A stretch of DNA of 64,000 nt from Amphiura filiformis. Taxonomy: Eukaryota > Echinodermata > Ophiuroidea > Amphilepidida > Amphiuridae. The position numbers and the translations under genes were made by a program. Below are positions 21,416 to 62,905 of this stretch, piece by piece; position 1 is the stretch's first letter; each line of letters starts with the position of its first letter. A model generated the notes under the pieces. The model did not search any database. It saw only the letters and a list, made by a program, of their open reading frames with translations, and was not told the origin of the DNA. The stretch spans positions 1 to 64,000 of the forward strand of contig NC_092629.1 of assembly GCF_039555335.1 (NCBI RefSeq). Direction: 5' to 3'.

Positions 21416-21416
21416 T

Positions 21417-23622: not shown

Positions 23623-23641
23623 CCACCCCCCTTAAAGGAAA
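23623..23641 (-). promoter_or_regulatory. Polypurine tract of the LTR element
   Basis: On the minus strand a purine run, 'aaggggggtgg', abuts the 3' LTR start TGTTACGCC. This is the expected place for plus-strand DNA priming. Confidence 0.75.
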
Positions 23642-24083
23642 GAAATCTTCACAAAAGATTTCTTTACATACTTTTTACTGAAATTTTTAAATCATCTAAA
23701 GTTACTTGCATGTAATTTACACTGCAAGTTTTACAGTGTAAGAACTAGTTAAATTGTAACTAATTCATGTTTCACAAATCTTTCAGAACATCCAAATTTC
23801 AACCAAAAATATACTGATCAAAATTTCCATACATAAATTCTGTGGTGTCGAAATAACCTTTTCTTAATTTTCATGGAAATTAAGTTTTTTGAATTAAATG
23901 AATCACCTTTTCCTGAACTGGTGATTATTACACTTTCAAAACAATATTTCAAACACACTTTTATCACCACACAATGTTTTCATAAGTCACATTTTAACTA
24001 ACATTGTGACATAATTCAACTAGGCACTATTATATTCAATATTGATGTACATACATTTTAACATCAGAAAATCCTGTGTCCTT

Positions 24084-26512: not shown

Positions 26513-27429
26513 TCTATTATCACCTGACTGAATGGTTCAACAAAAGCAGGAATAGGCTGCAACGGGGCTTGGGGCACCCTTTGGTTTGGCTTCCCCACAA
26601 TTTGACAGGTACTACAAGACCTACAATAAAGGGCCACATCCTTACTCAAGGAAGGCCACCAAAAATTCTGTAATATACGATCCTTGGTCTTTCTAACACC
26701 AAGATGTCCAGCCATAGGACTGTCATGACCTAAAGACAACACTTCAGACCTGTACACTCTAGGTACAACTATTTGATGGACTACATTAAAGTCCTCATCT
26801 ACCTTGGACTCTGGGGGTCTATATTTCCTCATCAACACCCCATGTCTCTTGTAGAAACATACAGCTTCACACTGCATTTCTTCAGTACTGACTGCTTTTT
26901 CCGCAGCTTGTAACACATCTGGATCCACATTTTGCTGTTTTATCAGCTCTTCCCTGCTAATCACATCATGCACATTTGGCTCTGTGTCAATGTCACTATA
27001 ACTTGAATCCAATTTTGACCCTTTGTCCAAACTTGGCTCTTTGTCCAACCTGGGACCCTGTGACTTGATCAACTCTTCAGCCTCAACTGCCTTTTTATGC
27101 ATAGCACGCGTGACTGCACATGACGGAAATATTACACCATTGTAATCCCCACTGTCTTCAAGACATGGTTTATCAGATACTATTGGTTCTGCATGAACTT
27201 TATCACCAGCCAAGTCATTTCCAAGAAGCATATCAACTCCTTCAATAGGCAGCTCCTTCCGAACTCCCATCTGGACTGACCCTGACACCAGACTTGACTT
27301 CAAATTGACTCTATGAAGGGGCACACTCAGTACCTCCATGCCTATACCTTGTAATAGCACATGGTTTCCAGTAGCACTATTTTCATCAAAATCAAGAGCC
27401 CCTCCAATATCACACTTTGTCCAGAACAA
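26458..27429 (-). pseudogene. Protease end, linker and integrase zinc domain, frame fragment
   Basis: The start continues the aspartic-protease region; LLGNDLAG near residues 68-75 fits the end of a retropepsin fold. The C-terminal third is the integrase H2C2 zinc domain, with GHLGVRKTKDRILQNFWWP and CRSCSTCQ, and the first catalytic aspartate in IIDCVGP. The frame is lost near 26,503-26,510 and the core continues in the next fragment. Confidence 0.88.
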
Positions 27430-28337
27430 GTATCTCTCATTATTTTGACTGAGATTTCCTCACCGTTTGCATCCAGGGACACAGTGCCATTACTAACAAA
27501 TGGTCTAAATTCCTCCCTGACTTCATTATAGTCATGTTTTGACTCTATTTTTGGAGGTCCTTCCCCTCCCACAACTTTACGTTGACCTGAAATAGCTGTG
27601 ACACAACCCACTCCTTTCGAGCTTTGATTTGAAGGTTTGCCATGCAAACTCCAACAATCCCTTTTCTTGTGCCCAACTTTTTCACAATGAAAACATTTCA
27701 TCTTTGATTTGTCATCTTTAGCAACCCCGGTGGTGCTCTTGTTATTACCAGCATTAGTACCACTGCTCCCCTTTTGTGCTTGAGTATAACTGTGACTCTG
27801 TGTGTGACTATAATTACTGTAACCAGAACTCTTTTCTTTGACTTTATACAACTTGTGAGTCATCTGATACTCGTCAGCTTTTACAGCTGCCTCTTGTATA
27901 GTTGCCACTTGTTTTTCCTCTAGATACGTTTTTACATTATCATATATGCAGGTTTTAAATTGCTCTATCAGAATCAGTTCTCTAAACTTTTCGAAGCTGT
28001 CTCCAACATCCTTGGCTGAGAGCCACTGGTCAAACAACTGTTCTTGTTTTCTCGCAAATTCCACGTGGGTTTGTTCCCCAGACTTTCTTTCTGATCTGAA
28101 TTTCTGTCTATAATATTCTGGAATAAATTGGTACCCTTTTAGAATTTGTTGTTTCACAATGTCATAGTTGTTAATTTGGTCCGCCTTTAGACTGGCGTAT
28201 ATCTCTCGCGCTTTTCCAATAAATTTGTGTTGGACCAACAACGTCCAGTCCTCTTTAGGCCACTGATGTAGGCCAGCAGTCTTCTCAAAGTGTTGAAAGA
28301 ACTGATCGACTTCAGTCTCCCTAAATTCAGGCACCAT
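27342..28337 (-). pseudogene. Gag capsid region, CCHC zinc knuckle and protease start, frame fragment
   Basis: Residues 1-165 resemble the helical gag of Gypsy-like elements (FRETEVDQFFQHFEK, WTLLVQHKFIGKARE). A low-complexity S/T/Q stretch follows. A zinc knuckle of form C-X2-C-X4-H-X4-C is at 215-228 (CFHCEKVGHKKRDC) and is expected to bind RNA. D302-T303 in RDTCSGQS is the likely protease active site, with C rather than the usual G after DT. The frame is lost in a short G/C run near 27,400. Confidence 0.9.
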
Positions 28338-28351
28338 TTTTAGGTGCTTGG

Positions 28352-28552
28352 CTACATCAAATTTTGATTCTGGTTTTGCCTCAGTTTTGGTTTTTTTTCC
28401 AATTCTTTAATTTGTACCTCTAGATGTTTCATTTCAACAGCCTTTTGGTTTTCTAATTCTTTCATTTTTATTTCATGTTCCAACTCCATTTGTTTCAAAG
28501 TGACCTGAAGTTTCATTTCCATTTCACTCATTTGTGATTCTTGTATTTCCAC
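28352..28552 (-). pseudogene. Gag coiled-coil segment, frame fragment
   Basis: Sixty-six codons rich in E, K, Q and L with heptad-like spacing, predicted to be a coiled coil. It joins the gag start and the capsid region, both in other frames. It ends in an A8 run near 28,390-28,398. The annotated first codon is GTG, not a real start. Confidence 0.75.
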
Positions 28553-28752
28553 CTTTTGTCCAAATATGCCACATCAAATTTCTTTGACTTCACAAAATGG
28601 TCTATCAGTTTGTTTTTGAAAGCCTGTTTTTTCTCATTTGAGCTCATTTTTAGCCCTACATGCTCTGCCAAAACTTGAAGATGAGACTTCTTTAGTGTAT
28701 CAAACACTTCAAATGTACCTTCTTCAAGAAACGTTTCTGGATTAAAAGCCAT
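28528..28752 (-). pseudogene. Gag N-terminus, frame fragment
   Basis: Seventy-four codons starting at a true ATG (28,750-28,752), with MAFNPETFLEEGTFEVFDTL at the start. This is the likely native gag start, about 320 bp inside the primer-binding site. The frame is lost at an A4 run near 28,553-28,557. Confidence 0.8.
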
Positions 28753-29069
28753 GTTTAGTTTTTAATTTGACATACACTGCACAAATCACTATTTGTAGAT
28801 CTCTTGTAAACTTGTAACTTACCACAAGATATAATAGGCCCAATTAAACTTGTAGGCCTACAATAAATTTTTGCTCACAAACAGGGTCAATATCAAACAA
28901 GTAGTTCATGTACACTTTTGATATACCCGGTACTTTACATAGGCATTACAATATTCATAACACTTTTCAAGTGGGGTGAAAATTTACCATGCCAGCTGAT
29001 TGACCTTTTGATTTCACTAATTTTGATTTTCATTTTCTATTCCCAAGATGACTTTGCATTTGAGAATAT
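28753..29069 (-). other. Leader between primer-binding site and gag
   Basis: Non-coding leader of the LTR element. A plus-strand 63-codon ORF over it is not supported. Confidence 0.6.
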
Positions 29070-29087
29070 CTCGCGGACGAGCCCCCA
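29070..29087 (-). promoter_or_regulatory. Primer-binding site, tRNA-Pro type
   Basis: On the minus strand the first 14 bases after the LTR are TGGGGGCTCGTCCG, then CGAG. The 14 bases equal the start of the well-known proline-tRNA primer-binding sequence, and two of the remaining four differ. There is no spacer between LTR and site. Confidence 0.85.
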
Positions 29088-29942
29088 TGTTACAAGCCTG
29101 GCTCACTGACTTGTAATCAATTGAAACAAAACCACCAAAACGACATATTAATTGAAGAATCTATGACCAATATATATATTCTATGGTGTTTAATATCACC
29201 AAAACGTTGTATTAACGTAACAGATCAAAGTTGTTACATAAACAATAAAACAATGCAATTACTGATTTAGGTTATTGTAAATCTTTATAGTTTTGATGGT
29301 GCAAGGTTTTAGTGAATATTCAGAGTTCCAGAGTACTTTAAAGTGATCACGTTGGAGCGCTCATGGAAGCTTGCATTGAAGTTACCACATTACTTGCTGT
29401 TCATGTTAAGCTTCTTGACGCCGGAACTGTGATTCAATATCTTCTTTAATCTGCATTATAATAAAGTCATCCTACCATTCAAGCACACAGAAGAGAGTCC
29501 AGGAGAGTTTGTGGTTAACATGACAAACTCTTGATGTCCATTAGGATGGCATTCACTGCCAAATCTGGAGACATTTGTCTCCCGTAAATTATGTCACCTA
29601 TCACACGATGACATCCATTTTGTCAGTCCTCATATTCCAGAGTTTTGTATCATGACATCATATCTCTTTATGAATATGCAAATTAGAGTCTACTTCTCAT
29701 TGATATGCAAAGTAAGAGTCTGCTGCCCTCTGGTTGCTGTAAATCATCCATAGAGAATATCTGCTGCCCTCTGGTTGTTGTAAATGATCCATATAGAGGG
29801 TGTACTACTAAGTTATCAACCTTGGCACCAATTAAGATCATTATTTCTTTATGATTACTTTTATATAAGTTTTCCTTGCACAATCATTCAATATAATATC
29901 CAACTTCAATCAACTGGCATGACAAGGGTCAAGGGCGTAACA
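29088..29942 (-). repeat. 5' LTR (855 bp)
   Basis: Starts TGTTAC and ends GTAACA on either strand. It is uninterrupted and should hold the promoter of the element. It includes a direct repeat of 'tgctgccctctggttg'. Confidence 0.95.
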
Positions 29943-30030
29943 ACAGTCAAATAGAACTTACGTCTGAGCACGAATTTTGAAGACGTGTGGAGAAATTTCG
30001 TGAATTTATTTTTAGTGCATAAGAATAGTT
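29943..30030 (+). repeat. Right ACAG target duplication and copy B, right part
   Basis: ACAG (29,943-29,946), then 'tcaaatagaacttacgtctg', which matches 452-528. Confidence 0.8.
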
Positions 30031-31480
30031 CGAATAAAGAATAGTTATAACAAACTGTAATGACTCGTTACCTAGGTAAGCATTCAGAGAAGTACCAGTA
30101 GGTCAACATCAGTAGGACTCAGTTGACAATGACCTATTTTAATGTGTTACCAAGGCAACAAGTCATTCTAGGTAGTTCAAACTATTCATTATTCGAGTTG
30201 TGGTACAGAAAGACCAATTTGAAACCATTTTCATTAAAATTGGAGCATTTTTCAATTTCAACCCCTGTGGGAGTTCTCTATTTAACCTTTGACCTTTTTA
30301 CTCATAACTCCACAATGATAAGTCGTAGATATGTAAAACTATATATTTTCTGAATCCTTATGACAAGAGGAATAATTTGACATATGTTTGGACAAAATTG
30401 GACAAGTTTATAATTTTGACCCCTGTATAAACTTTGACCTTGGATATCTCGAATTGCCCAGGGTGGCAATTTTACATCCCTCGAATCTCATTTTGTACTA
30501 CCAACAGAACAATAATCCAGAAACAAAAACACTTTAACGGGCAAAACCAACCTACCTTGGTCTGCCACCGGACTATATGGTTTTGTTTAATTTGCCATTT
30601 ATTCAATTATGAAATATGGAAATTACACAAAAAGTAATAATATATTATATAAAATAAAGATCCCAGAACACACAAAATATTTTACACAAAACGTTTAAAT
30701 GTCAGGTTATATAAAAGGTATAAAAAGTTTTTCGGTTGACTGGTTAATATAAACGTGTTTTCTTTCTAAGAATTGAGCAAAATACAAGATGTCCCATAAA
30801 AAGGTTACATGTCGAAAATGAACTGCATTTTCTGATGGTACAATAAACCAACGTCAATTTTTCAGATAACATTAACTCATCTTTCTTGTAATTGTGTGCC
30901 AAGTTTCAACTCCTCATCTTAAAAGCAACTAAACTTATAAGTGCAACATGCCGGGGATATCAAGTGTGACTAACCATCAAAATATAACTAAGTATTCCTG
31001 TATGTCCTTTTGAATGGGGGCACAGTGGACCATTCACGAAGGAGACTACTACTGGCTTGTACAGGTTGCGGCAAACAATGAACATCAACTTAGTCAAACC
31101 AAAATCTCGAAAATATCAACTAAACAAAATTAGTATAATGTCGCGACGACTTTACACCGATTTCGTGGTAGCAAGTCAGATATAACACGTTTATGTTCAA
31201 GAAAGTTCATAACAAGTTTATATCGTTTTAAAAATATTTTGTGTATTTGCTGGGGATACTGTGTACAAACAAAAGCTACTAGTTTAAGTGGTTTCTAATT
31301 TACAATTACTGTTAATTTATGATGCCTTACCAAATACCAAATTATCAATACAAACTTATATTTACAAGGAGTTCAATTTGCTTCTGACGGTGATAGGATA
31401 TACATATACCTTCATATAAGCAATATTTTAATATGCCCCCTGAGCAGATTACTTAACGAAAACCTTGGACTATGAAGTAT
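30031..31480. other. No gene seen
   Basis: AT-rich sequence with short ORFs only. No domain, exon or element boundary was recognised. Confidence 0.5.
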
Positions 31481-31483
31481 ATA

Positions 31484-32099
31484 AACTGAGCTCAAAAAGA
31501 AACTTATAATTTTTCACAAAGTCATATTTTAAAATCCTGTCCATCAAAATAAACAAAAATTACACACATGTTTTCTTAAATGCTCTACTCTAAACACATG
31601 TCAGTAACCAATCAGTTCTCCAACTGACATAACAGCAAAATGCACGATCATGGAACAGCTTCCCGGACCACATTCACAGCCCAATAATTGGCACCAAGCA
31701 AAAGAAATTTATGAGAATGGGTACAAGATCCTTGCACATAAGATAATTCCGAAAGAGTAAGTGGAATAGTGTGGAACAAAATTTGTTTCTTGAAGAAAGT
31801 GTGTGAAAAGAAAAAAGTAACAACGTTTCATCATATGTGCCAGGATCTTGCATACTCGCAGATTTTTGTGCTGGATGTTAAATATTGGGTTGTAAAAGTG
31901 GTCCAGGAAGCTGTTCCCTGTCAGTGTCTTTTGTTGTTGTGTCAGTTGGACAATTGCTTGGTTACTGACATGTGTTTTGAATAGAGTATTGTAGTAATCC
32001 TGGGTGTAATTTTGATTCATTTTGATTGACAGGCTTTTAAGATATGACCTTGTGATTCACAAGTTGTGAACAATTAGAAGTTTCTTTTTGAGCTCAGTT
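31484..32099. mobile_element. 616-bp TIR element with TA target duplication
   Basis: Ends AACTGAGCTCAAAAAGAAAC and its complement are inverted repeats of about 22 bp. TA flanks both sides (31,482-31,483 and 32,100-32,101). The size and TA suggest a Tc1/mariner-type MITE. Two overlapping ORFs on opposite strands (31,709-32,020 and 31,769-31,984) are chance. Confidence 0.75.
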
Positions 32100-32312
32100 T
32101 ACTATAATCAGGTAATTTCTTTTGGACGCATCAAAACAATAATAACATTGTTTAAACACGTTTGAGGGTTTTTGTAGGTACGTGGTATAATGCTTCTGCC
32201 ACACACAAACCCACATACATCAACTTCACAGTTATAAGGCCCAAAATGTTCCCATAATACCTGGCTTAAGACCAACCATGAAAATTCCTGGAAATTCATT
32301 AAGACATATTAA

Positions 32313-36783: not shown

Positions 36784-36831
36784 TCAAACATCCACATAGG
36801 CATCGTTGACTGTTCCAGTATTCGCCATATT
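36784..36831 (-). CDS. Exon 10: last coding exon, C-terminus NDAYVDV
   Basis: After an acceptor 'ttattatttacag' the phase-0 frame gives NMANTGTVNDAYVDV and TGA. It matches the phase-0 end of exon 9, the frame is open and AATAAA follows, so it is the best candidate for the last exon. The last residues V-D-V fit a class II PDZ-binding motif, which would link the receptor tail to a scaffold (inference). It is short, so transcript proof would matter. The 9.3-kb intron before it holds the palindrome and the exon-like array. Confidence 0.65.
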   Translation of the reverse strand, partial: NMANTGTVNDAYVDV

Positions 36832-36863: not shown

Positions 36864-36896
<33 letters not shown>

Positions 36897-36907
36897 CACA
36901 ATAACCA

Positions 36908-36948
<41 letters not shown>
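36864..36948 (+). repeat. (ATT)n and (AGT)n microsatellites
   Basis: About 11 ATT units, then 13 AGT units, inside the last intron about 30 bp upstream of exon 10 (gene sense). Confidence 0.9.
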
Positions 36949-37149
36949 ATGGTCCTTAATGTGAATTGTCCGCTAATGCGCAATAGGTGTCCTTATACGT
37001 CAATATATTCCACCTTCATTCAACAGGTTTAAACTATAATATAATGCTATAATTTGTGGTATGATTGCACAATTCCAATACGTAATACACGTTTAAAAGG
37101 AGGCTGGTGAAGAATTGGGGCATTGTTATTTTATTCTTTCCTTTATTTA

Positions 37150-37740: not shown

Positions 37741-39152
37741 TGATATTATGTAGGCCTATACAGTATAATACTGTAGTATACCCTTTATACTAGACGACAG
37801 TCTCATTAGGCATAATACGTAACAATTTTAAATTGAGGTATATTTCAAGAAGAAAAAAACAAAAATCAGACTTTGTTTTTACTACATTCACAATCGCTTC
37901 TACACATATTGCTCTTTTACCCTCCCCCTCTTATTTTTTTTAATTAAACATAAACTCTTCGTGCGCGTACATTAACAGTCATCATTTTAAAGTCCTCGCC
38001 AAATGAAAGTTACAAGCTATTTCATAACCTCTATTGCAGATTGGACCTATAGAATTTAGCCTTTAAAAATAAATCTCTGCACGCACTTGTTTGCCATTTT
38101 TGTTACCCACAATTTGCTTGACGTATCTTACTATTTTTTTTACACAGCTTCAGTAATAATAAAACAGGAATTATTATTGCTTTGTCTCTAAATGTACACT
38201 ATGAAATAATCATAATTATGCCTATTATGTACCAGTATAGGCTACAGTATAGTAACTGAACATTCTGTTCTTCAAAACATGTGTAAGGCACTTTAACATG
38301 TTTAATAGGGAACATACCCCGGCTGGAGTGAATGAGTAGAGCGCCATCATGTGATGATCCCAAAATGCATATGCATTTAGCATGTTAGTATGGTCGTTGG
38401 ACATTTTGACCAGGAAAAAATTGGTAAAAAGCTGATTTTTGCACCAGACAAGCAGAATATATCATAGAACATCATATCCAAAATCCCCAGAAATCCTCCT
38501 TGGGGAATTTGTTTTATCCAAGATGGCCGCCAAAATGGCCGCCACAACATATAATTAGCAGTATCTTAGCTTCTAAAGCAGATATGATGATGATTTTAGT
38601 GTCTTTGAATAGGTCTAAGAGGTCAGAGAATTCAAATTTGTACAAATCTAACATACTGATGTCTTCAATCACACTGAAATCCAAGATGGCCGCCAAAATG
38701 GCCGCCACAACATATAATTAGCTGTATCTTAGCTTCTAAAGCAGATATGATGATGATTTTAGTGTCTTTGAATAGGTTTAAGAGGTCAGAGAATTCAAAT
38801 TTGTACAAATCTAACACACTGATGTCTTCAATTACACTAAAATCCAAGATGGCCGCCAAAATGGCCACCACCACATATGATTAGATATATCTCCGCTTCT
38901 GAAGCAGATATGATGATGATTTTAGTGTCCTTGAATATATTTCAGAGGTCAAAGAATTCCAATTTGTACGTATCTAAAACACTGAAGTCTTCATTCACAC
39001 TGGAATCCAAGATGGCCGCCACCACCACGTTTTTAAGAGAATGTAGGTTTTAGGGGTTGCAGATTTCAATGTTGCAATTACTTAAATCACGGAAGTAAGT
39101 GCTCAGTAACAATAGAATCCAAAACAGCTCCCACCACATGATTTTCTATATC

Positions 39153-39470
39153 TCAGTTTCTGAAGCAAAAGTATCTATCTTCGACTTCATCTGCAAGTAT
39201 AATCGCCTCAGCGTTTTGGCAATTTTCTCCTCTGCAATCTCCACAAGCTGTGACACATTTAAATCCCTTTTTGCGACAGGAACATCCGTTATTTCCACAA
39301 GGACTCCTGGAGGATAGTTTACATATGTATCGTACAAACTTAAGCAAGCCTTGTGGTGCTGTATCTCCATCCGTAAGGACCGGTGCTAGTACGGTGTCAG
39401 ACAGTTTCCAACCCCATTGATTTGGATCCAAGTTATTGTTTGTGAGCTTTCTCCAAAGTATGACCTCCAA
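39153..39470 (-). pseudogene. Cys-rich C-terminal ORF of the palindrome repeat, left arm
   Basis: The 105-codon frame has WGWKLSDTVLAPVLTDGDTA, then a cysteine cluster CGNNGCSCRKKGFKCVTACG followed by DCRGENC. The cluster is reminiscent of tesmin/TSO1-like CXC domains, and such ORFs occur as multi-copy hypothetical proteins in invertebrates (recollection, not searched). The right arm has the same sequence with stops (40,720-41,040). Its function is unknown; it is probably part of the mobile repeat. Confidence 0.55.
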
Positions 39471-39963
39471 AAGAACACTCAGACTGTGAAAATACGCTGC
39501 TCTTTTTAACTAGGTGGAAGCTTTTTTGGATCAAGTGATGCTTTATTTGATGATACCATCGCCATGAATTAAGCGAACCGCAGACCGTTTAATGAATCTT
39601 CTTTTCTGCCACCACATAAGACAATAAATACTCTGATGCCATTTGTACCAATCTGTTCTAATGTCGCCTCAGGATCGCTCATCTAGGATGATATCTGCTG
39701 TAATTCTTCTTATCTTCTGCAACAAACTTGTCTTTCCATGTCCAAATGTTGCAGAAGTGGAGTCACAACCACTCCATGCATGGATAAACAGGACCTGCGA
39801 TGGAATGTCAATACTTCACCAACGTTGTTAATAAGGTCTTGAACTTCCCAACCCACCGATATCAGCTATATTCTGGTCCCCAGTGGCACCTGGTCACCAG
39901 TGGCACTTCTCTTCCTTGTCTTGAACATTGAAGGAGTCTTGAAGGGTACATTCCAATATCAAT

Positions 39964-40290
39964 GTGTCAGCATCTCCGGTACTATTGTGCACCGTCCATC
40001 GACTCAGCAGCGACATAAACTGGCATTTGTTCTTATCATATTCAGCTCACAGAATCTATGAAGGTTCTCACCATGACCAGCAGACCTTCCTCTTGAATGA
40101 GAAGAACAACAATCAGTTTATCTCGCTGCTGAGTCGATACTTGGAAACCAATGGTCAGATCGTGCACAATAGTACTGGAGATGCTGACACTTTGATAGTG
40201 AAATGTACCCTTCAATTTGCAAGACAAGGAAGAGAAGTACCTGTAGTAGCAGATGACACAGATATACTTGTCCTTTTGATGTACCATTGA
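39964..40290 (+). pseudogene. PIN-like ORF fragment of the palindrome repeat, centre and right arm
   Basis: The frame crosses the centre of the palindrome and continues into the right arm. STGDADTLIVKCTLQFAR and VPVVADDTDILVLLMYH give conserved-looking aspartates at spacing seen in PIN-like nucleases. The first ~25 codons read the opposite arm and are not native. The left arm has the inverted version in broken form. The domain call is tentative. Confidence 0.45.
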
Positions 40291-42539
40291 GACCAGACTA
40301 TGGCTGATATCTACTTCCATTCAGAGAAGAAAGGGTTGGTGGTTTATAAAGTTCAAGACCTTGTTAACAAAGCTGGTGAAGAAGTGACATCCCATCTCCT
40401 GTTTATCCGTGCATGGAGTTTTTGCGACTCAACTTCTGCAACAAGAAGATAAAAGAATTGCAGCAGATATCATCCTAGATGAGCGATCCTGAGGCGACAT
40501 TAGAACAGATTGGTACAGCTGGCATCAGATTATTATTTTGTTGTCTTATATGGTGGCAGAGAAGAAGATTCTTTAAACGGTCTACGGTTCGCTTAATCCA
40601 TGGCAATGGTATCATCAAATAAAGCATCATTTGATCCACAGCTATCGACAAAAGCTTTCACCTACTGAAAGAGCAGCGTATTTTCACCGTTTTTTATTTC
40701 TGCGGGTTGTTTTACAGGTCATACTTTGGAGAAAGCTAACAAACAATGACTTGAATCCAATTTAAAGCAATGGGGCTGGAAAAATTCAGACATCGTACTA
40801 GCACCAGTCCTTACGAATTTAGATGCAGCACCACATGGCTTGTTAAGCTTGTACGATACAATAAATTTATTGTAAACTTTCCTCCAGGAATTATTGTGTA
40901 AATAACGGATGAACCTGTCGCAAAAATGGACTTAAATGTGTCACAGCTTGTGAAGATTACACTGGAGAACATTGCCAAAACGCTGAGGCGATTATACCTG
41001 TAGATGAGAATGAAGACAGCTACTTTTGCTTCAGAAGCTGAGATAATATTATTCACATGTGGTGGCAGCTATTTGCGATTCTATTGCGACTTGCACTTCA
41101 GTGTTATAAGCCCGGGTTTTAAGTAATTGCAACAATTCTCTGACCCTTAAAACCTACATTCTCTTAAAAACTTATTCAAAGATTAAAACCACCATTATAT
41201 TGGCTTAAGAAGCTGAGATATTTAGCTAATCGTGTTTGATTTGAGCAATATTGAGGGCCATGTTGGATTGCAGTGTCAGTGAAGACATATACTTATGAAG
41301 ATAAATACAAAATTGACTTCTACGTCACCTAAAACCTATTCAAAGACACTAAAATCATTATCATATCTGCTTCATAAGCCAAAATATACCTAAACATAAC
41401 ACGTGGTGGTGGCGGCCATTTTGGCGGCCATCTTGGATTCCAGTGTGAATGAAGACTTCAGTGTTTTAGATACGTACACATTTGAATTCTTTGACCTCTG
41501 AGATATATTCAAGGACACTAAAATCATCATATCTGCTTCAGAAGCGGAGATATATCTAATCATATGTGGTGGTGGGATTTTGGCGGCCATCTTGAATTTC
41601 AGTGTGATTGAAGACATCAGTGTGTTAGATTTGTACAAATTTGAATTCTCTGACCTCTTAAACCTATTCAAAGACACTAAAATCATCATCATATCTGCTT
41701 TAGAAGCTAAGATACAGCTAATTATATGTTGTGGCGGCCATTTTCGCGGCCATCTTGGATTTTAGTGTGATTGAAGACATCAGTGTGTTACATTTGTACA
41801 AATTTGAATTCTCTGACCTCTTAAACCTATTCAAAGACACTAAAATCATCATCATATCTGCTTTAGAAGCTAAGATACTGCTAATTATATGTTGTAACGG
41901 CCATTTTGGCGGCCATCTTGGATAAAACAAATTCCCCAAGGAGGATTTCTGGGGATTTTGGATATGATGTTCTATGATATATTCTGCTTGTCTGGTGCAA
42001 AAATCAGCTTTTTACCAATTTTTTCCAGGTAGCCACTGTTTTTCCTCTTCAACGACCACACTATGTTTAGGAAAAATGTCTGGGATACTAGCGTATTAGA
42101 TTTCGGTCATGCGGATTCTACAAACGCGTTTTTAAAAATACTAATGCGATTAGGCCTATATTACATACCTTATATAAAAGCAGGCCTAAAGTGGCTTTAC
42201 CGTAACAGTTACAAAATCAAAATGCAAACCAATAAAAAAAATGTACAATGTAGGCCTTAAAGAAACCCACTATAGTATAGTGACAGTATGTATCCCAAAA
42301 TAATTTCAAGGTTTTATATTTTTAAAGTATAAGCGTTTTTTTATAGTCATAATTCATTTAGTTATCTTAAAGGGGATTTATTTTAGTTAAATAGATTATG
42401 GATTTTACTCGAGCTTATGTGAAATATCGCCCTTTTATGCATCCAGGTAAAAACAATAACATTTTTAGTGTAAATGGGATTAATTAACATAGGCCTAATT
42501 ATAGCAAGGTTTACATACGCTGCCCGTCCTCCTAATCCA

Positions 42540-43160: not shown

Positions 43161-44450
43161 GCAGTAATAACATTAACACATTTGCATAATTTGCAAGCTA
43201 ATACGTACTAAAATTCACGAATGGTTTACATGCTGAACCTGTCCTCCTACTTTACATGGGACCAATGGCGTAGTGGGGAAGGTGTGGGTGAAGCTGCTCC
43301 TGTGGGATATATTGCCCTTCCCCCACGTGCTCGACCCCCGGGGTCCGCCGTGATATTTTAGACATTTAGGACTTGTACTTTTAGCCTATATAGGTACATT
43401 TTAGTCACATTTCCCCTTAAACCAACCCCCACGCCCCTCTCCCTCCCAACAATCCTGGTAACGCTACTGATCGTAGCTACTTCCAAGAGCTAATGTTTAA
43501 TTAAGCATGCAATGATGAAAGAGGGTGATATTTAATAGGGATTCATTTTAGTGCACAAAATTGCAGTATGGTGGTGCAAGATGCACATTTTGCATACATT
43601 GACATATCTTTATTGACCCTATACAAGTGGTCACATTTAATGAAATAAATAATCATTTTACTTAATGAAGTGTTTTAGCGCCCTCAACGGCGTTTTTTCT
43701 TTTTCATTCACTGACGCTTTAGTTCCTTATATTTGATTTTTAAATTGCGTGCAATTTGCTTTCATAATGATTTACTAATAAATCATTAGAGTGTTGATCA
43801 ATTGTATAGTTTATTTAAAAGAATATTCGACTTTCCCAAAATGGTCTATGTGCATTGACGTAAGCGGGCGTGAACATTGCACATCAGAGGACATGATACG
43901 TGAAAAACGCAAAATCGATTAAAAGCTCTTTATTTGAATAGTATTTAACCCATCATCTGATAGGTGTATTAGGGCGTGTCAGGCCTCCTTCCCTGAAAAT
44001 TTGAGCCTAATTATGATGGAAATAAAGAAACTATGGTCTATTGGTGTTTTGCAAAATTTCATCAAAATAAACATTTCATGCATGTTAGGTCTTAATATAA
44101 GACAACTTCATTTTTTCGTCAGGTGGTTGTATAGGGTCATTTTATAATCAGTAGTAGAGTTATGATGCTAAAATATCAAAATAACAATTAAACTATGTAT
44201 TTCTGTCTAATTTGTACCTGAACATCATCTATAAAGATCAATTAACAGGCCATCACTTTTGGTCCCTAACAGTGTCCACTAATGGCCAATACTTAATAAA
44301 AAATAACAAATTTTGCTGATACGATTATCAAAGATCAAATTTAATGTGTTTATAAGAATGGCAATTGTTTATTGTGTATAATTACCTTTTTATTTGATTA
44401 AAATCGGTTAATAAATAAAGAAAATAGCACAAATTTAAATTTAAGGACCA
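43160..44450. other. Intron sequence, nothing recognised
   Basis: AT-rich intron DNA with a C-rich patch near 43,310-43,450. No exon with splice sites in frame was found. Confidence 0.45.
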
Positions 44451-44452
44451 TT

Positions 44453-44506
<54 letters not shown>

Positions 44507-44508
44507 AT
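44453..44508 (+). repeat. (AGT)n microsatellite
   Basis: About 18 AGT units immediately before the exon-like array. Confidence 0.9.
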
Positions 44509-44530
44509 AGTAATGATAATAATGTAATAA

Positions 44531-46202
44531 TAATAATCTGTCCTATTACCCGGGAGTAGTAATGTTTAACTTAAAAAAAAAGACGAGAAATCTGGGGTAA
44601 GCTGCCCTATTGCCTGAGAGAAGAAATGTTTAACTTACCAATAATGACGGGAAAGCTGGGGTAAGCTGTCCTATTGAATGGGAGTGGTAATTTGTATTTA
44701 CTAATAATGACGGGAAAACTGGGGTACGCTGTCCTATTACCGGAGAGTGGTAATTTTTAACTTACAATGTTGATGGGCAAGCGGGTGTAAGCTGTCCTAT
44801 TGCCTGAGAGTACTAATGTTTAACTTAACAATAATGACGGGAAATCTGAGGTAAGCTGTCCTATTACCTGGGAGTAGTAATGTTTAACTTACCAATAATG
44901 ACGGGAAAGCTGGGGTAAGCTGTCCTATTGCCTGGGAGTAGTAATGTTTACTTACCAATAATGACGGGAAATCTGGGGTAAGCTGTCCTATTACCTGGGA
45001 GCAGTAATGTTTACTTACCAATAATGACGGGGAAGCTGGGGTAAGCTGTCCTATTACCTGGGAGTAGTAATGTTTATTTACCAATAATGACGGGAAAGCT
45101 GGGGTAAGCTGTCCTATTACCTGGGAGTAGTAATGTTTATTTACCATTAATGACGGGAAAGCTGGGGTAAGCTGTCGTATTACCTGGGAGTAGTAATGTT
45201 TAACTTACCAATAATGACGGGAAAGCTGTTGGAAGCTGTCCTATTGAATGGGAGTAGTAATGTTTATTTACCAATAATGACGGGAAAGCTGTTGGAAGCT
45301 GTCCTATTACCTGAGAGTAGTAATGTTTAACTTACCAATAATGACGGGAAAGCTGGGGTAAGCTGTCCTATTGAATGGAAGTAGTAATGTTTATTTACTA
45401 ATAATGACGGGAAAGCTGGGGTAAGCTGTCCTATTACCTGGGAGTAGTAATGTTTATTTACCAATAATTACGGGAAATCAGGTGTAAGCTGTCCTATTAC
45501 CTGGGAGTAGTAATGTTTAACTTACCAATAATGACGGGAAAGCTGGGGTAAGCTGTCCTATTACCTGGGAGTAGTAATGTTTAACTTACCAATAATGACG
45601 GGAAAGCTGGGGTAAGCTGTCCTATTGAATGGGAGTGGTAATTTGTATTTACTAATAATGACGGGAAAACTGGGGTACGCTGTCCTATTACCGGAGAGTG
45701 GTAATCTTTAACTTACAAATGTTGATGGGCAAGCGGGTGTAAGCTGCCCTATTGCCTGAGAGTACTAATGTTTAACTTCACAATAATGACGGGAAATCTG
45801 GTGCAATCTGTCTTATTGCCTGGGAGTAGTAATGTTTATTTACCAATAATGACGGGAAAGCTGGTGTAAGCTGTCCTATTACCTGGGAGTAGTAATGTTT
45901 AACTTACCAATAATTACGGGAAATCTGGGGTAAGCTGCCCTGTTGACTGGGAGTAGAAATATTTAACTTACCAATAATTACGGGAAATCAGGTGTAAGCT
46001 GTCCTATTGCCTGGGAGTAGTAATGTTTAACTTACCAATAATGACGGGAAATCTGAGGTAAGCTGTCCTATTACCTGGGAGTAGTAATGTTTAACTTACC
46101 AATAATGACGGGAAAGCTTGGATAAGCTGTCGTATTACCTGGGAGTAATAATGTTTAACTTACCAATAATGACGGGAAAGCTGGTGTAAGCTGCCCTGTT
46201 GT
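44531..46202 (-). repeat. Array of ~26 exon-like 63/64-bp units with splice sites
   Basis: About 26 units, the last of which is the 3' end of exon 9. In gene sense most units read '...actactcccag', 39 nt from GTAATAGGACAG to TCATTATTG, then GTAAGT or GTAAAT. The 39 nt are phase 0 on both sides and encode VIGQLTPAFPSLL or variants. Units of 63 bp are open throughout (45,147-44,884 reads four in a row); 64-bp units put a TAA just after the donor (V-S-stop). A few units lose the AG ('gaatggg' variants). Units 2-5 and 17-20 share the same rare variants, showing a higher-order duplication. Confidence 0.9.
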
Positions 46203-46435
46203 TCTGTAAATGCTTTCCAGTGGCGTATCAAGAATGAGTTGACTAGGACCTTCCACTTCTATGTAAGGGTCCCTTACTACGTAAGACGGTAGGGGAGGTT
46301 CTATGTCGAAAGGTATGTTAGTTCTTCCGACTCTTCCCATACGGCAATAAATACAACAGAGAGCTGCTAAAAGTGCAGCTAAAGCAGAACAACCAACCCC
46401 ATATCCGAGGGCGATCCAACCATGCGTTGTTATAC
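46164..46435 (-). CDS. Exon 9: transmembrane helix and cytoplasmic tail
   Basis: The exon starts in phase 1 after 'gacatag' and ends in phase 0 at TTG before GTAAGT. Ninety codons give GWIALGYGVGCSALAALLAA, a 23-25-residue hydrophobic helix, then CCIYCRMGRVGR, a cysteine-rich and basic stop-transfer edge, and a proline-rich tail with PPLPSYVVRDPYIEVEG and ESIYRTTGQLTPAFPSLL. Tyrosines in SYVV, PYIE and IYRT could be phosphorylated (inference). If the donor is not used, translation adds V-S and stops. The last ~39 nt and the donor are the founder-like unit of the array. Confidence 0.88.
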
Positions 46436-48808: not shown

Positions 48809-48873
48809 CATTTGCAGTGTTGCCAGTACCGTTGATTCCTTGGCATCGACCGCCACTTACACCAGCATCACAT
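48809..48873 (-). CDS. Exon 8: second half of membrane-proximal EGF
   Basis: Phase 2 in, phase 1 out. With exon 7 it completes an EGF module: C-I-CDAGVSGGRCQG supplies the fifth and sixth cysteines, followed by NGTGNTANG, a short linker to the membrane with an N-G-T glycosylation sequon. The acceptor 'tttactgtttgcag' and the donor GTAAAT are clear. Confidence 0.82.
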
Positions 48874-49859: not shown

Positions 49860-51390
49860 TTCCGCAGAAAGCTGCTTTTAAGATGGCGTCCAGGGTGGTC
49901 ACCATTGAGTTGTAATTTTGGCGACAATCTTCAGGTTTTTGGGGTCTGGAAACCCGTTGGACCAATAAAAATGTTATTGAGTAATCAGGTAACCTTCAAA
50001 TCTATAATGGCGTCCAAAAAGACCACTTATACACTAAAATGGCTATAATTCGTCAATTACAATTCACCTGAGAGTTGTAATTTAGATGTGTATGTGTATG
50101 GGGATGAGGAAACCCATTTAGACCAATTAGAATGTCTTTGAGTAATCAGGTAACCTAAAGATGGCATCTACGCAAGTTAATGTCATAAACTACTCACCTT
50201 GGAGTTGCAATGTTGGTGTCTATACTATGATCAGGTCTTAATAGGCGGGAATTATTCCGTTTTTGTTACTGCGCTAGTCAATAAAGTTCCAACTTACCTA
50301 CGCGTAAATTCACAAAAGCACGCGTCATTCACGCAAGGCGCAATTCGCGTAGGTGCTGCGCCTAGCTGTGTGTACGCCATTCTGTATCAATCCACGATGT
50401 TATGAGTCCGGCCTATTAAGGGGGTACTACACCCATGTGGTAAATTTGTGACTATTTTTGCATTTTTCTCAAAAAATAATTACACACTGGTAACAAAAGT
50501 TATGTATATTATTGGGGCAAGGAATCCAATTACTACGTTGAAATTGCAGTGACTCAAGGCAAGCGGTACCTTATTTCTGATCATAAATAACAAACCGCTT
50601 GTCTTGGGTCACTGAAATCCAGTGTAGTAATTGGATTCATTGCCCCTATAATATACATAACCTTTGTTACCACTGTGTTATTAGTTTTTGAGAAAAATGC
50701 AAAAATAGACACAAATTTATCGAGGGGTGTAGTACCCCCTTAAGAGCTGATCAGAGTATACCCTATGTTGAGGAGTTCTATAAACGCCTTATTATTTTTA
50801 GTTCTGTGCCCTGACATATTTGTGCATCTATCGCTTTAAGCAAGTTCATCAAACTGTGGAAACAACCCAATCGGCTATTCGGCTATACATCAATGATTAT
50901 CTCAACAGCCTTCCAAAATAGGGGTTGTCCAATGTTATTATTGATAAAAGGAGTTGCTAAAGGAACTCCGAAGTGGATAAAAGGCAAGTGTATAATACAT
51001 GGCTGTCAGTGGTTCATTCCACCGATTACAGATTTATGATAATAGACAAATTTAATTCTCATTGAAGTGTTTTGGCAGCCATATTGATGAAATCAGGAAT
51101 TATTGATTACCTGATTACTTGATGATACTTAAAATATTCTTAGTGAGTTGCATGGTCCTATGCCCTAAAACCTAGGGGTAGATATCAGCATTGCAGATGG
51201 TAAATGACTTAAGAGTATTGTCAGTCTTGGAATTGAAGGTTACCTGATTACGCAATGACATTTTTATTGGTCTTAGAGGGTTTCTTGAACTCTAAAATCA
51301 AGAAGTAGACGCCAAAATTACTGCTCTATGGTGTATACATAATGACCTATATCCATTTTGGCTAATTGCGGCCATCTTGAACGCCATCAA
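49860..51390. repeat. Inverted degenerate repeats around a MITE
   Basis: Plus-sense units with 'gaaaccc', 'ggaccaat' and 'gagtaatcaggtaacct' (49,860-50,200) recur inverted at 51,030-51,390 ('aggttacctgattacgcaatg'). Each side has two or three diverged ~140-bp units. It may be a foldback-type element. Confidence 0.55.
50420..50739. mobile_element. 320-bp palindromic MITE with TTAA target duplication
   Basis: Nearly the whole element is one inverted repeat beginning GGGGGTACTACACCC. TTAA flanks both sides (50,416-50,419 and 50,740-50,743). The centre is near 50,580. Confidence 0.85.
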
Positions 51391-51684: not shown

Positions 51685-51757
51685 ATGCAACTAAAAGTGA
51701 AATCAGCTTGCACGGTACAAACACCTCCATTAGCGCAAAAGGAACTTGGGCATCTAT
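51685..51757 (-). CDS. Exon 7: first half of membrane-proximal EGF
   Basis: Phase 1 in (GAT across the junction), phase 2 out, with acceptor 'ttttctctttag' and donor GTAAGT. It reads D-RCPSSFCANGGVCTVQADF-TFSC, giving the first four cysteines of an EGF module that exon 8 completes. No calcium-binding signature (D-x-N/D-E) is present. Confidence 0.85.
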
Positions 51758-53215: not shown

Positions 53216-54703
53216 TTAATTTTCATCTAATAGATCCAACAAATCTCTCAGTGTAGGAGACATAGGGCAAATTCCGGTTTTGGAGTTAGCATCCGCTATA
53301 CTTTGCAAAGTCGGAGTCAAAGATATATTAGGGTTTTGGTCTAAAGTTATCTTTGCTCTGATAAGACGCTCTCCTGTGTTTTGAGTGCGTCTTAAAGCTA
53401 GTATAGGGGGGCAAGGGAAGAGTTTGCACAGGTTATGATTATTTGATATAAAATGCCAGTTCCTGAGAAGTGCCTTTTTGATTTTTGCATTACCTCTTAG
53501 GGGGTAGTGATGCGTGCAGAAAACTAGAGGTATTTCCTCACGTTTTTTGGAACATCCTCTAAGTAAATATTTCGTCTATTGTATGAAATATCTGCTAGGC
53601 ATGCGAGCACTTCTGGTTTCTTATATCCTCTTGTGAGAAGTTTTGAGATAAAGAAATCAAGTTTGTGCTCATATTCTGTCTCCGAGCTGGAGTTTCGAAT
53701 ATATCTTATAGCCTCACCCTTAACCATGCCACGAAAACACGAATTTGGGTGAGACGAATCTCTTGAAAGATATTGAAATGTGTCACAGGGTTTGCTGTAG
53801 CATTTTATATCTAAGATCTGTTTGTCATGAAATCTTTCATCCTTGTATAGAGTTAAGTCTAGAAAATTAATTTCTGTTTTTGACCACTCATGTGTGAATT
53901 TCAGAGTCGGGTGCATAGAGTTGATACGACTTATGAAATTAGCTAACTCGTTTTTATCTCCTAACCAAAACATAAGAATATCATCACGATAACGGAACCA
54001 TTTGAAGATTTTATCGCTAAGGGAAATGAATTTCTTTTCCAACGAATGGAACATTATGTCACATAGTTCTGGGGAGCATTTTTGTCCCATAGCTACGCCT
54101 GTCGTTTGCAAATAGTATTTTTCATTAAATGAAAAACAGTTTCTATGCAAAATCAGTTTTAATAATGCTTCCATATGACGGATATGTGGCATTCTAGGAA
54201 AGTACATTCCTGGATTAACTTCTGAAAAAGTCTTTAAAACTTCTTTTTCAACTTCATTTTGAAGAACATTAGTGAACATTCCAATGCAATCTATTGTAAC
54301 CAAAAGACATTGGGCTGGAAGTTTTAATTGCTCAATTTTTCTTATCGCATCTTTTGTGTCTCTCAAGTATGTGTTTTGTTTTTGAACGAGAGGGACTGCA
54401 AAAAAGTCGATAAATTCACCAATTTTTTTCACATGGTCCACTAACATTACTGACTATAGGTCTTCCAGTAAAGACCCGGCCAGTAGGGGTGGTTTTGTGA
54501 GCTTTTGGCAAAAAGTAGCAAGTTGGTGTTCGAATTTTATGTTCTATCGGATACAGATAGTCGTGTGTATTTTTATCAATACTTTGATCCCATAACATGA
54601 GGTTAAGCTGTTTTTGAACCAATTTTACCGTATCAAATGTCATGTCTGCATCGATTACAGTGTATTCATTTGTTGTCCAGTGAATTATTCGTCTCCATTT
54701 GGG
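53216..54703 (-). pseudogene. Penelope-like reverse transcriptase remnant
   Basis: The RT is recognisable across three frames. Near 54,500: CYFLPKAHK and GRPIVSNVSGP. In 54,447-53,524: LVTIDCIGMFTNV, the QTTGVAMGQKCSPELCDIM box, catalytic RYRDDILMFW and INFLDLTLYKD. In the last frame: HYPLRGNAKIKKALLRNW and LRRTQNTGERLIRAKI, ending RDLLDLLDEN-stop. Frames shift at an A7 run near 54,428-54,436 and again near 53,524. The protein ends without a GIY-YIG domain. The 5' end abuts a MITE. It sits in intron 6 on the same strand as the host gene. Confidence 0.88.
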
Positions 54704-55622
54704 CTATTCCATTAAAGGTAGGTCTGAACACTGGAAATATGCAAATGTTCGTGCCTCATAACTGCTAAATTGTTGGTGTAAGGTATATAAAAGTATACAT
54801 ATTTAGAATGGCAAAGACTTGATAAGTTCATCTGTGAGGTCAAATTTGGGCCAAAATGCTCATTTTTGGCCCCAAATCCCCAAAAACGGTTTTTGGACCA
54901 CTTCTTTTTCGTAAATCGTAACAAAAATATTCTTGGGCCATTTTTTAAAATTAATTTGTAAAAACTAGATAACAATATGTAGGAGCCGTTTTTTATTTTT
55001 TGGAATTTCGACCAACTTTGCGAAATTTGCACCAAAAATGGTAAAAAAAAACCGCTGAATTTTCAAAAAAAAATCATACTAAAGCCCATTTTTCGCCCAA
55101 GTTTCAAATATAATTGGTCACAATTCAAAAAAATAAAAAAAACGGCTCCTAGATATTGTATCTAGTTTTTAAAAAATGATAAAGAAAATGTTGGGCCCAA
55201 GAAATTTTTTGTTACGTTTAACGAAAAAGAAGAAACAAAAAAAACACAAAAATTTGACCTCACAAATAAATTGATCAAGTCTTTGCCATTCTAAATATGT
55301 ATACCTTTATATACATTACACCAACAATTTAACAGTAATGACGCCCGAAAGTTTTCATAATTCCAGGGCTTAGACCAATCTTAAAATCCACACTTTCCCT
55401 GTGGATTTTGGAAATATCTTCCAATGGGGGGAGTATGAATTTCAAATGGAATGAACACATTTGAAAAGTACCCTCCCTCTGTGGAAGATTTCCTTAGAGG
55501 GTGCATGTAGTTCAAATAGAGTGGCCATTTTGTATTCATTCTATTTGAAATTCATACTTCCGAGATGGAAGAAATTTCCAAAATCTTCGACAGGGGTAGT
55601 GTCAATTTTAAATAAAATAGCC
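54701..55622. mobile_element. MITE with GGGCTATT ends
   Basis: The left end GGGCTATTCCATT and right end 'aaataaaatagcc' are approximate inverted repeats. The right half has 'gaaattcatactccc'-like blocks in both orientations (55,430-55,560). It interrupts the Penelope remnant and contains the hairpin at 54,721-55,376. Confidence 0.55.
54721..55376. mobile_element. 656-bp hairpin element
   Basis: Two arms of about 270 bp, starting GGTCTGAACACTGGAA on the left and 'ccagggcttagacc' on the right, with a long matched block around 'gaatggcaaagacttgat'. The middle is A/T runs. No clear target duplication. It is apparently nested in the GGGCTATT MITE. Confidence 0.75.
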
Positions 55623-55912: not shown

Positions 55913-56126
55913 CACCAATCGACAAAAGTAGTAGGTCTGTGTTTCCTAAATATCCAGACAAACCAGTAGTACGCGCGAAAACCTCATCGACGTCGCTAAC
56001 TGTTGCCGGTGAAGTGCTTGCTACCGGAACTTCGTAGACCACACCGATCATGTCTCCGAGCGGGTAAACTTCCTTTACTCGAGGAGGACCTTGGAGTCCT
56101 TCAAGATCATGGAATATTGGTGCCAA
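55913..56126 (-). CDS. Exon 6: second half of SEA domain II
   Basis: Phase 0 in, phase 1 out, with donor GTAAGA. It reads LAPIFHDLEGLQGPPRVKEV, then YPLGDMIGVVYEVPV and a helix-like DVDEVFARTTGLSGYLG. The block fits the C-terminal half of a SEA fold, with strands around GVVYEVPV. The autocleavage sequence G-S-V-V-V is not present (MIGVVY), so self-proteolysis is unlikely (inference). The exon parallels exon 4 in length (214 versus 217) and phases. Confidence 0.8.
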
Positions 56127-56881: not shown

Positions 56882-57009
56882 TGCTGGGTTAACTTCACTG
56901 GCAAATTGAAGAAACTCGGGACTATTCGTGTCCAGCAATCTCGGGTCGAACTCCTCTCCATTGCTCGCATAAAATATGCCTTCGATACTTCGTGCGTATT
57001 GTCCTTGTT
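56882..57009 (-). CDS. Exon 5: first half of SEA domain II
   Basis: Phase 1 in, phase 0 out, with acceptor 'actttatcacag' and donor GTACGT. It reads EQGQYARSIEGIFYASNGEE, then FDPRLLDTNSPEFLQFASEV. The S-x-E/F-x-x-L/F-A helix is the usual first helix of SEA domains. It pairs with exon 6. Confidence 0.78.
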
Positions 57010-58543: not shown

Positions 58544-58760
58544 CTATGGGTTTGGCAATTCTCAAGGTACTGTCTCCCAAATACCCATCTGGTGTTATAC
58601 TCCCTGCGACGAGGGTGTCAATATCCGTCGCGTCAGTGCGTGAAGCGGCAGCCACACTCGTTTCAAATACTACTCCCACGTGTCCGTCTGACGTAGGAAA
58701 TATTCGTGCAACAGATACGTCATCAAAACCATCGACGGCAGGTGGCAGTATATTGCGAAG
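58544..58760 (-). CDS. Exon 4: second half of SEA domain I
   Basis: Phase 0 in, phase 1 out, with acceptor 'aatttctgtag' and donor GTAATA. It reads LRNILPPAVDGFDDVSVARI, then FPTSDGHVGVVFETSVAAAS and DIDTLVAGSITPDGYLG. The layout follows exon 6 closely, including the final YLG-(D/N)-(S/T). As in SEA-II the G-S-V-V-V cleavage site is missing (GHVGVVF). Confidence 0.82.
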
Positions 58761-60028: not shown

Positions 60029-60159
60029 TTGAGTTTCAACAATATCCGCCAGGTTTTTAAATTCTTGACTATCAGGGTCATACATTTCTCTCACAAACTG
60101 GAGTGGTAGGCCATCTAACTCATCTGCGTAGATTCGTCCAATAAAAGTTTTCGTTTCAC
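60029..60159 (-). CDS. Exon 3: first half of SEA domain I
   Basis: Phase 1 in, phase 0 out, with acceptor 'gctgcatgtag' and donor GTTAGT. It reads RGETKTFIGRIYADELDGLP, then LQFVREMYDPDSQEFKNLAD and IVETQ. F-x-G-x-I at the start and D-S-x-E-F-x-x-L-A are typical SEA features. It follows the cbEGF exon directly. Confidence 0.83.
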
Positions 60160-61186: not shown

Positions 61187-61826
61187 GGGATCTAAAATGA
61201 GCGTTTATTGCGTTTCGACAGTATTTTTTGTGGGTCATGAGAGCACCTCAGACCTATCGAATTGCATTCTGAATACGAGCCATGTCTTTCTGATATCAAA
61301 TAATTTTCATTTTTTGAAAATCACAATATAATACAAATTTTATGACAAATTATAAAAATTTGATATTTTTCAAATTTTTGATATATAACAGTCCTTGAAG
61401 TAAAATCTAATGTTATATTCTTAAAGTGTATGTAGCAGGGAGGAAAAGCCGACGGTCAATTGAAAATTTTAACCTTTCATATTGAAGATATGGACTTTTT
61501 TCCCAAAAAGACCTAATTTTTTTTGGTGTTTTGGGATTTTTCAATACGAAAGGTCAAAATTTTCAATTGATCGTCGGCTTTTAATCCCACCTACATACAC
61601 TTTAAGTATAAATCATCAGATTTCTAAAGTTTACTTCAAGTACTGTTAAATATCAAAAATATCAATTTTAATGATTTGCCATAAAATGTGTATTAAATTG
61701 CGAATTTCAAAAATCAAAATTATTTGATATCAGAATGACATTCTTCGTATTCAGAATGCAATTCGATATGTCTGATGTGCTCTGATGTCCCAAAATAAAT
61801 ACTGTCCAAACGTTCATACCCACCCC
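61187..61826. mobile_element. 640-bp palindromic MITE with TTAA target duplication
   Basis: Ends GGGATCTAAAATGAGCGTTT and 'aaacgttcatacccacccc' are diverged inverted repeats, and the arms match along most of their length to a centre near 61,510. TTAA lies at 61,183-61,186 and 61,827-61,830. It is in intron 2, about 40 bp from the donor of exon 2. Confidence 0.8.
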
Positions 61827-61865: not shown

Positions 61866-61994
61866 GAACACATCGATTGCCTTCAAGCATATATTCTGGA
61901 TCCGTGCAAATGCATTTGTAGGTTCCAACTTTGTTGAAACATTCTATGTTGTTGCCAATGCACATTGGTGGATTTAACTCACACTCATTTTTAT
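61866..61994 (-). CDS. Exon 2: calcium-binding EGF domain
   Basis: A 129-bp exon, phase 1-1, with acceptor 'caatatag' and a perfect donor GTAAGT. It encodes D-KNECELNPPMCIGNNIECF-N-KVGTYKCICTDP-EYMLEGNRCV. D-x-N-E-C at the start and the N/F-x-x-x-G-T-Y-x-C pattern give the calcium-binding EGF signature, and six cysteines are present. Such modules are rigid extracellular spacers that need Ca2+. Confidence 0.92.
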
Positions 61995-62809: not shown

Positions 62810-62905
62810 CGTCATCACAAAATTTGCCTGTATATCCATCTGGACATTGACATTCATCTGGCCCAACACAGAAGCCGCCATTTCGACAATCTAAAGCGCA
62901 TGTGA
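62810..62905 (-). CDS. Exon 1 (first in window): EGF domain
   Basis: A 96-bp exon, phase 1-1, with acceptor 'tttcaatatttcag' and G|GTAGGA donor. It reads [20 protein letters not shown], then [11 protein letters not shown], a compact EGF with six cysteines and the GY-x-G-x-x-C end. Earlier exons must lie beyond 64,000 because the phase-1 start needs a preceding exon. Confidence 0.9.

Follow-up and report, generated by a model that had tools for sequence, protein, structure and literature searches.

Turri, Cuin and Porter reportedly described, in 1995, a minisatellite with multiple splice donors in human IFI6 (6-16/G1P3), a gene whose repeat unit is 12 nt long. Downstream repeat units of IFI6 are used as donors (PMC4526556). 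In human UBC, a tandem splice-site array ladders the product and VCX3A has been called analogous, with dual-specific sites being enriched among the introns of tandem repeat genes (PMC10809524). The ~73-kb intron of Drosophila Ubx contains two 51-nt recursive-splicing exons, m1 and m2, of which m1 is ultraconserved; donor competition is one deciding factor for the inclusion of these micro-exons, and the ratchet donor of recursive-splicing exons tends, with exceptions, to be stronger than the exon donor (PMC8605326). Duplication of an exon-intron border is known as a source of splice signals (PMC4974935). Among open-licence papers, judged by their titles and the beginnings of their abstracts, no intronic minisatellite of complete micro-exons was described.

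Here we describe an array at the border of exon 9 and intron 9 of a brittle star gene, in a stretch of 64,000 nt from Amphiura filiformis (contig NC_092629.1, hereafter the window). The window covers the 3' part of this gene, which lies on the minus strand and has the domain make-up EGF-SEA-EGF-TM. Its ten in-window exons (62,905 down to 36,784) give a single open frame of 456 codons plus stop, with domains in the order EGF, calcium-binding EGF, SEA, second SEA-like, EGF-like (exons 7 and 8), transmembrane and short cytoplasmic tail. Exon 1 in the window (62,810-62,905) contains the EGF domain and exon 2 (61,866-61,994) the calcium-binding EGF domain, and SEA domain 1 is divided between exon 3 (60,029-60,159, first half) and exon 4 (58,544-58,760, second half; its own donor is GTAATA). 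The second SEA-like domain spans exon 5 (56,882-57,009, first half) and exon 6 (55,913-56,126, second half); exon 5 was assigned to it by homology to two A. filiformis proteins, P0001 and P0002, and received no Pfam call for this domain. The first part of the membrane-near EGF-like domain lies in exon 7 (51,685-51,757), again assigned by homology to P0001/P0002, and the second part in exon 8 (48,809-48,873), whose own donor is GTAAAT. Exon 9 (46,164-46,435) encodes the transmembrane segment, called by eye, and the cytoplasmic tail. After an intron of 9.3 kb, the coding part of exon 10 (36,784-36,831) adds a 15-residue tail, NMANTGTVNDAYVDV, and the stop.

The array occupies positions 44,538-46,202 of the minus strand, where it starts in the coding end of exon 9 and continues in intron 9. 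In the one haplotype examined, its anatomy can be read directly from the sequence as 26 tandem units of 63 or 64 bp and a 12-nt partial unit. TRF reported a 64-bp unit in 26.2 copies (44,534-46,197, 86% matches), and all start-to-start spacings on the minus strand were either 64 nt (14/25) or 63 nt (11/25), in agreement with the original prediction of about 26 tandem units of these two lengths. Many head-to-tail units within the range of 10-100 bp make the array a minisatellite. The prediction was also right that one terminal unit is the coding 3' end of exon 9: unit 1 (46,164-46,202) is the final 39 nt of the exon, TTGQLTPAFPSLL, and the donor GTAAGT comes directly after it at 46,163. It had further claimed phase 0 for both the end of exon 9 and the start of exon 10 (36,831), and a V-S-stop for transcripts read past the exon 9 donor; both phases were found as described, with the frame open across the ten exons, and the extended frame does end at V-S-stop in the first gap. 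Units 2-26 (44,575-46,138, minus strand) are potential 39-nt cassettes. At the donor place a GT was present in 23 of the 26 units, of which 15 had a GTAAG-type and 8 a GTAAA-type site (14 and 8 among the 25 downstream units), and an AG preceded the cassette in 19/25 downstream units. Three units (4, 5 and 12) contain in-frame stops, and the cassette of unit 23 has lost one base and measures 38 nt. Complete units, having an AG, an open 39-nt segment and a GT, amounted to 12 of the 25 downstream units (2, 3, 6, 8, 11, 13, 15, 17, 18, 19, 20 and 21), and the earlier statement that most units have all three was thus too strong. Gaps between adjacent cassettes were 24-25 nt, as predicted, but the predicted minimum of 88 nt for joins between non-adjacent units was slightly off, as skip-one introns measure 87-89 nt. 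No further copies of the unit were found within the 64-kb window, and one exact unit 32-mer used as query gave no match among viral contigs.

Compared with the described systems, the array shares some traits with each. As in IFI6, a tandem repeat lies at an exon end with a donor in each unit, and the true donor is one of many; in the brittle star gene, the units carry the exon's own donor, at the frequencies given above. The units of IFI6 are alternative donors in mRNA, whereas any such role of the present units is putative. Its units are also longer (63/64 nt), intact ones add an acceptor and an open 39-nt segment, and an extension of the exon stops at once. The repeat units of UBC and VCX3A contain an AG|GT through which units can be retained or removed with the frame unchanged (PMC10809524); an AG|GT also occurs within the units here, though at only 12/25 boundaries. 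In those genes, however, the repeats lie in a coding exon and are spliced at an interval equal to the unit length, whereas our array is intronic, its cassette takes up 39 nt of a 63/64-nt unit, the unit is not a multiple of 3 (64 nt in 14/25 spacings) and the intron contains stops. The Ubx micro-exons resemble the units in having AG and GT side by side, a short exon and a second donor at the exon end (PMC8605326); this recursive-splicing anatomy, an AG|GT ratchet with a downstream exon donor, occurs in ten of the 12 complete units. In contrast to Ubx, the units are degenerating copies, and their ratchet donor is weaker, not stronger, than the exon donor (TTG|GTAATA 1.9 vs 8.4, by an approximate matrix). 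In the cases of PMC4974935, one of which (in potato) spans an exon-intron boundary, a tandem duplication also passes on ready-made splice signals; unlike there, the copies sit inside an existing intron and no new intron is shown. What sets the present array apart is the occurrence of a putative acceptor, an in-phase open segment and a donor together in each intact unit, within an intron.

Only two relatives of the encoded protein were found, the A. filiformis proteins P0001 (687 aa) and P0002 (387 aa), which are 57% and 53% identical to it, respectively, in a search whose scoring was limited to the best 8,000 candidates by shared words. The protein encoded in the window did not itself appear among the matches, and the gene may thus be an unannotated paralogue. 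A second search with the P0001 tail as query again yielded P0001 and P0002 only, among 239 candidates. P0001 has two Calx-beta stretches upstream, and their counterpart in the present gene would fall outside the window. Both relatives end in TGQLTP[A/D]FPSLL-NM, with SLL joined straight to NM and zero cassettes in between (the alignment query lacked exons 7 and 8), which makes the exon 9-10 junction credible. Across three protein searches, one of which scored the best 8,000 candidates only, no protein with a repeated cassette was found. At residue 8 of the cassette (window position 46,180) alanine is found in 16 of the 26 units, aspartate in 8 and valine in 2; the matching residue is aspartate in P0001 and alanine in P0002. 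This is a hint of array-exon exchange, or else chance. A 115-aa hypothetical protein from a JGI metagenome contig, P0003, contains three tandem TKQGIGQLTPA-type repeats and matched the array read-through frame at E = 0.025. Its IGQLTPAF, shared with the array frame, lies within a different tandem repeat of P0003's own, and we regard the match as probably due to chance.

We scored the splice sites of the units with approximate vertebrate matrices. On this scale, the acceptors of the 12 complete units reached 5.6-8.7 compared with 1.3-9.5 for the gene's own ten acceptors, and their donors scored 8.4 in six units and 3.9-5.3 in five, with unit 13 falling to -0.3, compared with 3.8-8.4 for the gene's nine donors. 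Because these ranges overlap, the sites of 11/12 complete units appear not plainly weaker than the gene's real ones, as judged by these matrices. The rate at which an in-phase open cassette arises by chance was estimated from 20,000 random 31-nt fillers of the minus strand, with exons and the array excluded. Such a cassette appeared in 11.1, 5.0, 2.1 and 0.7% of fillers at acceptor scores of at least 0, 3, 5 and 7, respectively; a founder-type unit has an acceptor score of 7.5. The in-phase acceptor thus looks like an accident of roughly 1-2% that was multiplied by copying, although the filler test overstates the surprise because the question was posed after the unit had been seen. The founding unit was better than a typical accident (chance rate 0.7-2.1%), which counts against reading the array as a neutral minisatellite, as does the survival of 12 complete units, 11 of which have donors within the gene's own range. 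Outside the array, in-phase pseudo-exons whose acceptor and donor both scored 5 or more were counted 10 times on the minus strand and 9 times on the plus strand; the array itself contained 7. Strong donor-like motifs within the array amounted to 14 on the plus and 13 on the minus strand, and because the two strands are about equal, motif counts by themselves say little.

Selection was examined with parsimony changes on a FastTree tree of the units, with frames 1 and 2 as controls; power was low, as there were 74 changes and the units recombine, so that the tree is rough. The original prediction had treated the cassettes as possible coding micro-exons, with changes in the 39 nt biased to synonymous sites as a check, and no sign that they are kept as such was detected. 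Changes were spread evenly over the unit, with 48/74 inside the 39 nt (39/64 columns, p = 0.55); such an even spread had been given in the original prediction as part of what would refute it. In frame 0, 14/48 changes were synonymous vs 26.6% expected (p = 0.40), so within the low power of the test there was no clear excess; the control frames gave 6/44 (frame 1, expected 22.6%) and 9/41 (frame 2, expected 26.1%). The synonymous share of frame 0 was the highest of the three, yet not above its own expectation. Diversity at codon positions 1, 2 and 3 was 0.114, 0.160 and 0.129. The four splice dinucleotide columns were no less variable than the rest (mean diversity 0.195 vs 0.124 elsewhere), and 8,184 of 10,000 random column quartets had a diversity at or below theirs. 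Hence, the evidence speaks against long-standing selection for the cassettes. Poor conservation of sites is nevertheless compatible with their use in splicing, since the sites of the UBC array are poorly conserved and spliced nonetheless (PMC10809524). A hairpin between the GGTAAG donor and CTTACC of the next unit was also considered: the fold of the consensus junction was better than those of mononucleotide shuffles (z = -2.9). The pairing was not kept together across the 25 junctions (307/364 cells, shuffled mean 308.7, reached by 433/500 shuffles), and the hairpin was taken as chance for this reason.

The end of exon 9 is conserved in P0001 and P0002, and copying therefore ran from exon to intron. 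Exon 9 sequence upstream of 46,202 had no detectable similarity to the unit (the score was reached by 115/500 shuffles), which places the left edge of the repeat near 46,202-46,191. At this edge lies the exonic 10-mer AACAGGGCAG (46,191-46,200, minus strand), the last nine bases of which code for the conserved TGQ; its proposed intronic partner, AATAGGACAG, matches it at 8/10 bases and is contained in the distal end of the array, GGTAATAGGACAG (44,538-44,550, minus strand). We consider it probable that the array is a largely neutral, splice-competent intronic minisatellite, and infer its origin and splicing outcome as follows. A 64-nt stretch across the donor of exon 9, with 27 nt from the exon and 37 nt from the intron, would have been duplicated through slippage or unequal exchange between the two near-identical 10-mers. 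All units would have inherited the exon 9 donor. The founding unit would already have had the acceptor-like CTACTCCCAG as well as the phase and the open frame, and copying would have multiplied them; the intron-derived 37 nt would take in the first 12 nt (VIGQ) of the cassette. Growth would afterwards have continued by unequal exchange, probably with one exchange of 15 units. In the usual mRNA, 46,164 would be joined straight to 36,831, and cassettes would be splicing noise at most. At unit columns 5 and 9, where the exon and intron words differ, the exon type is found at both columns in unit 5 and at one in units 8 and 26, a pattern that hints at exchange at more than one point. Between units 8-10 and units 23-25 identity is 95-100%, and mean identity at an offset of 15 units is 0.919 vs 0.82-0.88 at 21 other tested offsets. 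This internal block repeat at offset 15 probably reflects later growth by larger exchanges. Beside trinucleotide repeats, TTAAGGACCATT occurs at the far end of the array (44,441-44,537) and again before exon 10 (36,865-36,959); an inverted alignment of these two segments gives 74% identity over 98 nt, much of it in simple repeat.

The extension of the repeat into exon 9 would also be seen if a dispersed satellite or a repeat from a mobile element had been there first and exon 9 had taken its end from it. With TGQLTP[A/D]FPSLL-NM conserved in A. filiformis proteins of only 57% and 53% identity, and with no further unit copy in the window, this order of events is scarcely plausible. Other explanations concern what the spliceosome does with the units. 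Since every extension of exon 9 ends at V-S-stop, the exon 10 tail can be kept only through the direct junction or through the inclusion of cassettes. The downstream GTAAGT sites might compete with the exon 9 donor as in IFI6, so that the 15-residue exon 10 tail is lost with the V-S-stop and decay may follow. This would agree with the 14 GTAAG-type and 8 further GTAAA-type donors among the 25 downstream units, with the VS-stop in the first gap and with the use of downstream units in IFI6 (PMC4526556). Each extension meets a stop two codons on, however, unlike in an array that modulates length; the donor columns are not conserved, and strong donor-like motifs are about equally frequent on both strands of the array (14 on the plus, 13 on the minus strand). 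We therefore regard both the competition and the resulting loss of the tail as quite improbable.

Inclusion of cassettes between exons 9 and 10 would instead lengthen the tail in steps of 13 residues and repeat the motif QLTPxFPSLL. From the exon 9 donor, unit 2 would be reached by a 25-nt intron and the other 11 of the 12 complete units by introns of at least 89 nt, and a chain of at most 9 cassettes (117 residues) is feasible if every intron has at least 80 nt. This arithmetic, together with site scores overlapping the gene's own, the low chance rate of such a founder and the conservation of the copied motif in P0001 and P0002, argues for serial micro-exons. We judge them distinctly unlikely all the same, as neither coding nor splice-site constraint was detected, stops occur in three units, GT is absent from 3/26 and AG from 6/25, P0001 and P0002 are without a cassette, and the searches described above returned no multi-cassette protein. 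In a related reading, the AG|GTAATA at the unit start would serve as a ratchet point, and the 39-nt cassette would be a recursive-splicing exon, either kept or removed again; this would help to remove the 9.3-kb intron or let cassettes leak into the mRNA. Ten of the 12 boundaries with AG|GT belong to complete cassettes, GTAATA is the donor of exon 4 in the same gene, and the 51-nt Ubx micro-exons work in this way (PMC8605326); by their rule of donor competition, the stronger cassette donor here would favour inclusion. The regenerated donor is nonetheless weak by the same approximate matrix, comparable AG|GT sites are frequent in the window, with a further 17 on the minus strand and 23 on the plus strand, and the sites are not conserved from unit to unit; both the ratchet and its proposed effects are very improbable. 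Occasional use of complete units in splicing may still take place, because ten of the 12 have the AG|GT...GT anatomy of recursive-splicing exons. Put most broadly, the array would be splice-competent, its 12 complete units being 39-nt micro-exons in phase 0, of which ten have recursive-splicing anatomy, and their use by the spliceosome would give 0-9 extra motif copies; we hold this outcome to be unlikely. Were it true, the protein would carry a ladder of the conserved 13-residue tail motif, the number of cytoplasmic motifs would be determined by splicing, or splicing noise, together with the copy number of the repeat, and the minisatellite would act as a generator of cassette exons.

Under the preferred reading of a largely neutral minisatellite, a small tandem duplication over an exon-intron border would have supplied many ready-made donors and, by luck, an in-frame micro-exon. 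The array would then offer a natural setting in which to test why closely spaced, strong-looking sites are passed over by the spliceosome, and whether new exons can arise from such repeats.

Several other repetitive elements were observed in the window. Positions 20,744-29,945 of the minus strand hold an LTR retrotransposon, probably a young one, in which 29,088-29,945 matches 20,744-21,055 (100%) and 23,078-23,625 (99.8%) as LTRs. Its domains are, in order, a SCAN-type gag, an integrase (H2C2, rve, p58_C), a reverse transcriptase and an RNase H; the element is Ty3-like, with the integrase before the reverse transcriptase, an order that we take to be the Gmr1-like arrangement. One of its LTRs is split by a segment of ~2 kb (21,056-23,077) with a plus-strand reverse transcriptase (RVT_1), presumably of non-LTR type, and this segment is probably a nested, recent insertion. 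A large inverted-repeat element lies at 38,409-42,030, where 39,029-41,171 is a 73% self-palindrome flanked by 163-bp tandem units in opposite orientation. Four imperfect self-palindromes of ~330-670 bp and 70-86% identity (31,478-32,106; 50,413-50,746; 54,712-55,385; 61,211-61,812) are probably foldback or MITE-like elements, and two shorter self-palindromes are present besides. Finally, the intron between exons 6 and 7 contains, on the minus strand, a 309-codon open frame (53,527-54,453) with a reverse transcriptase domain (RVT_1, 2.1e-07), which looks Penelope-like.
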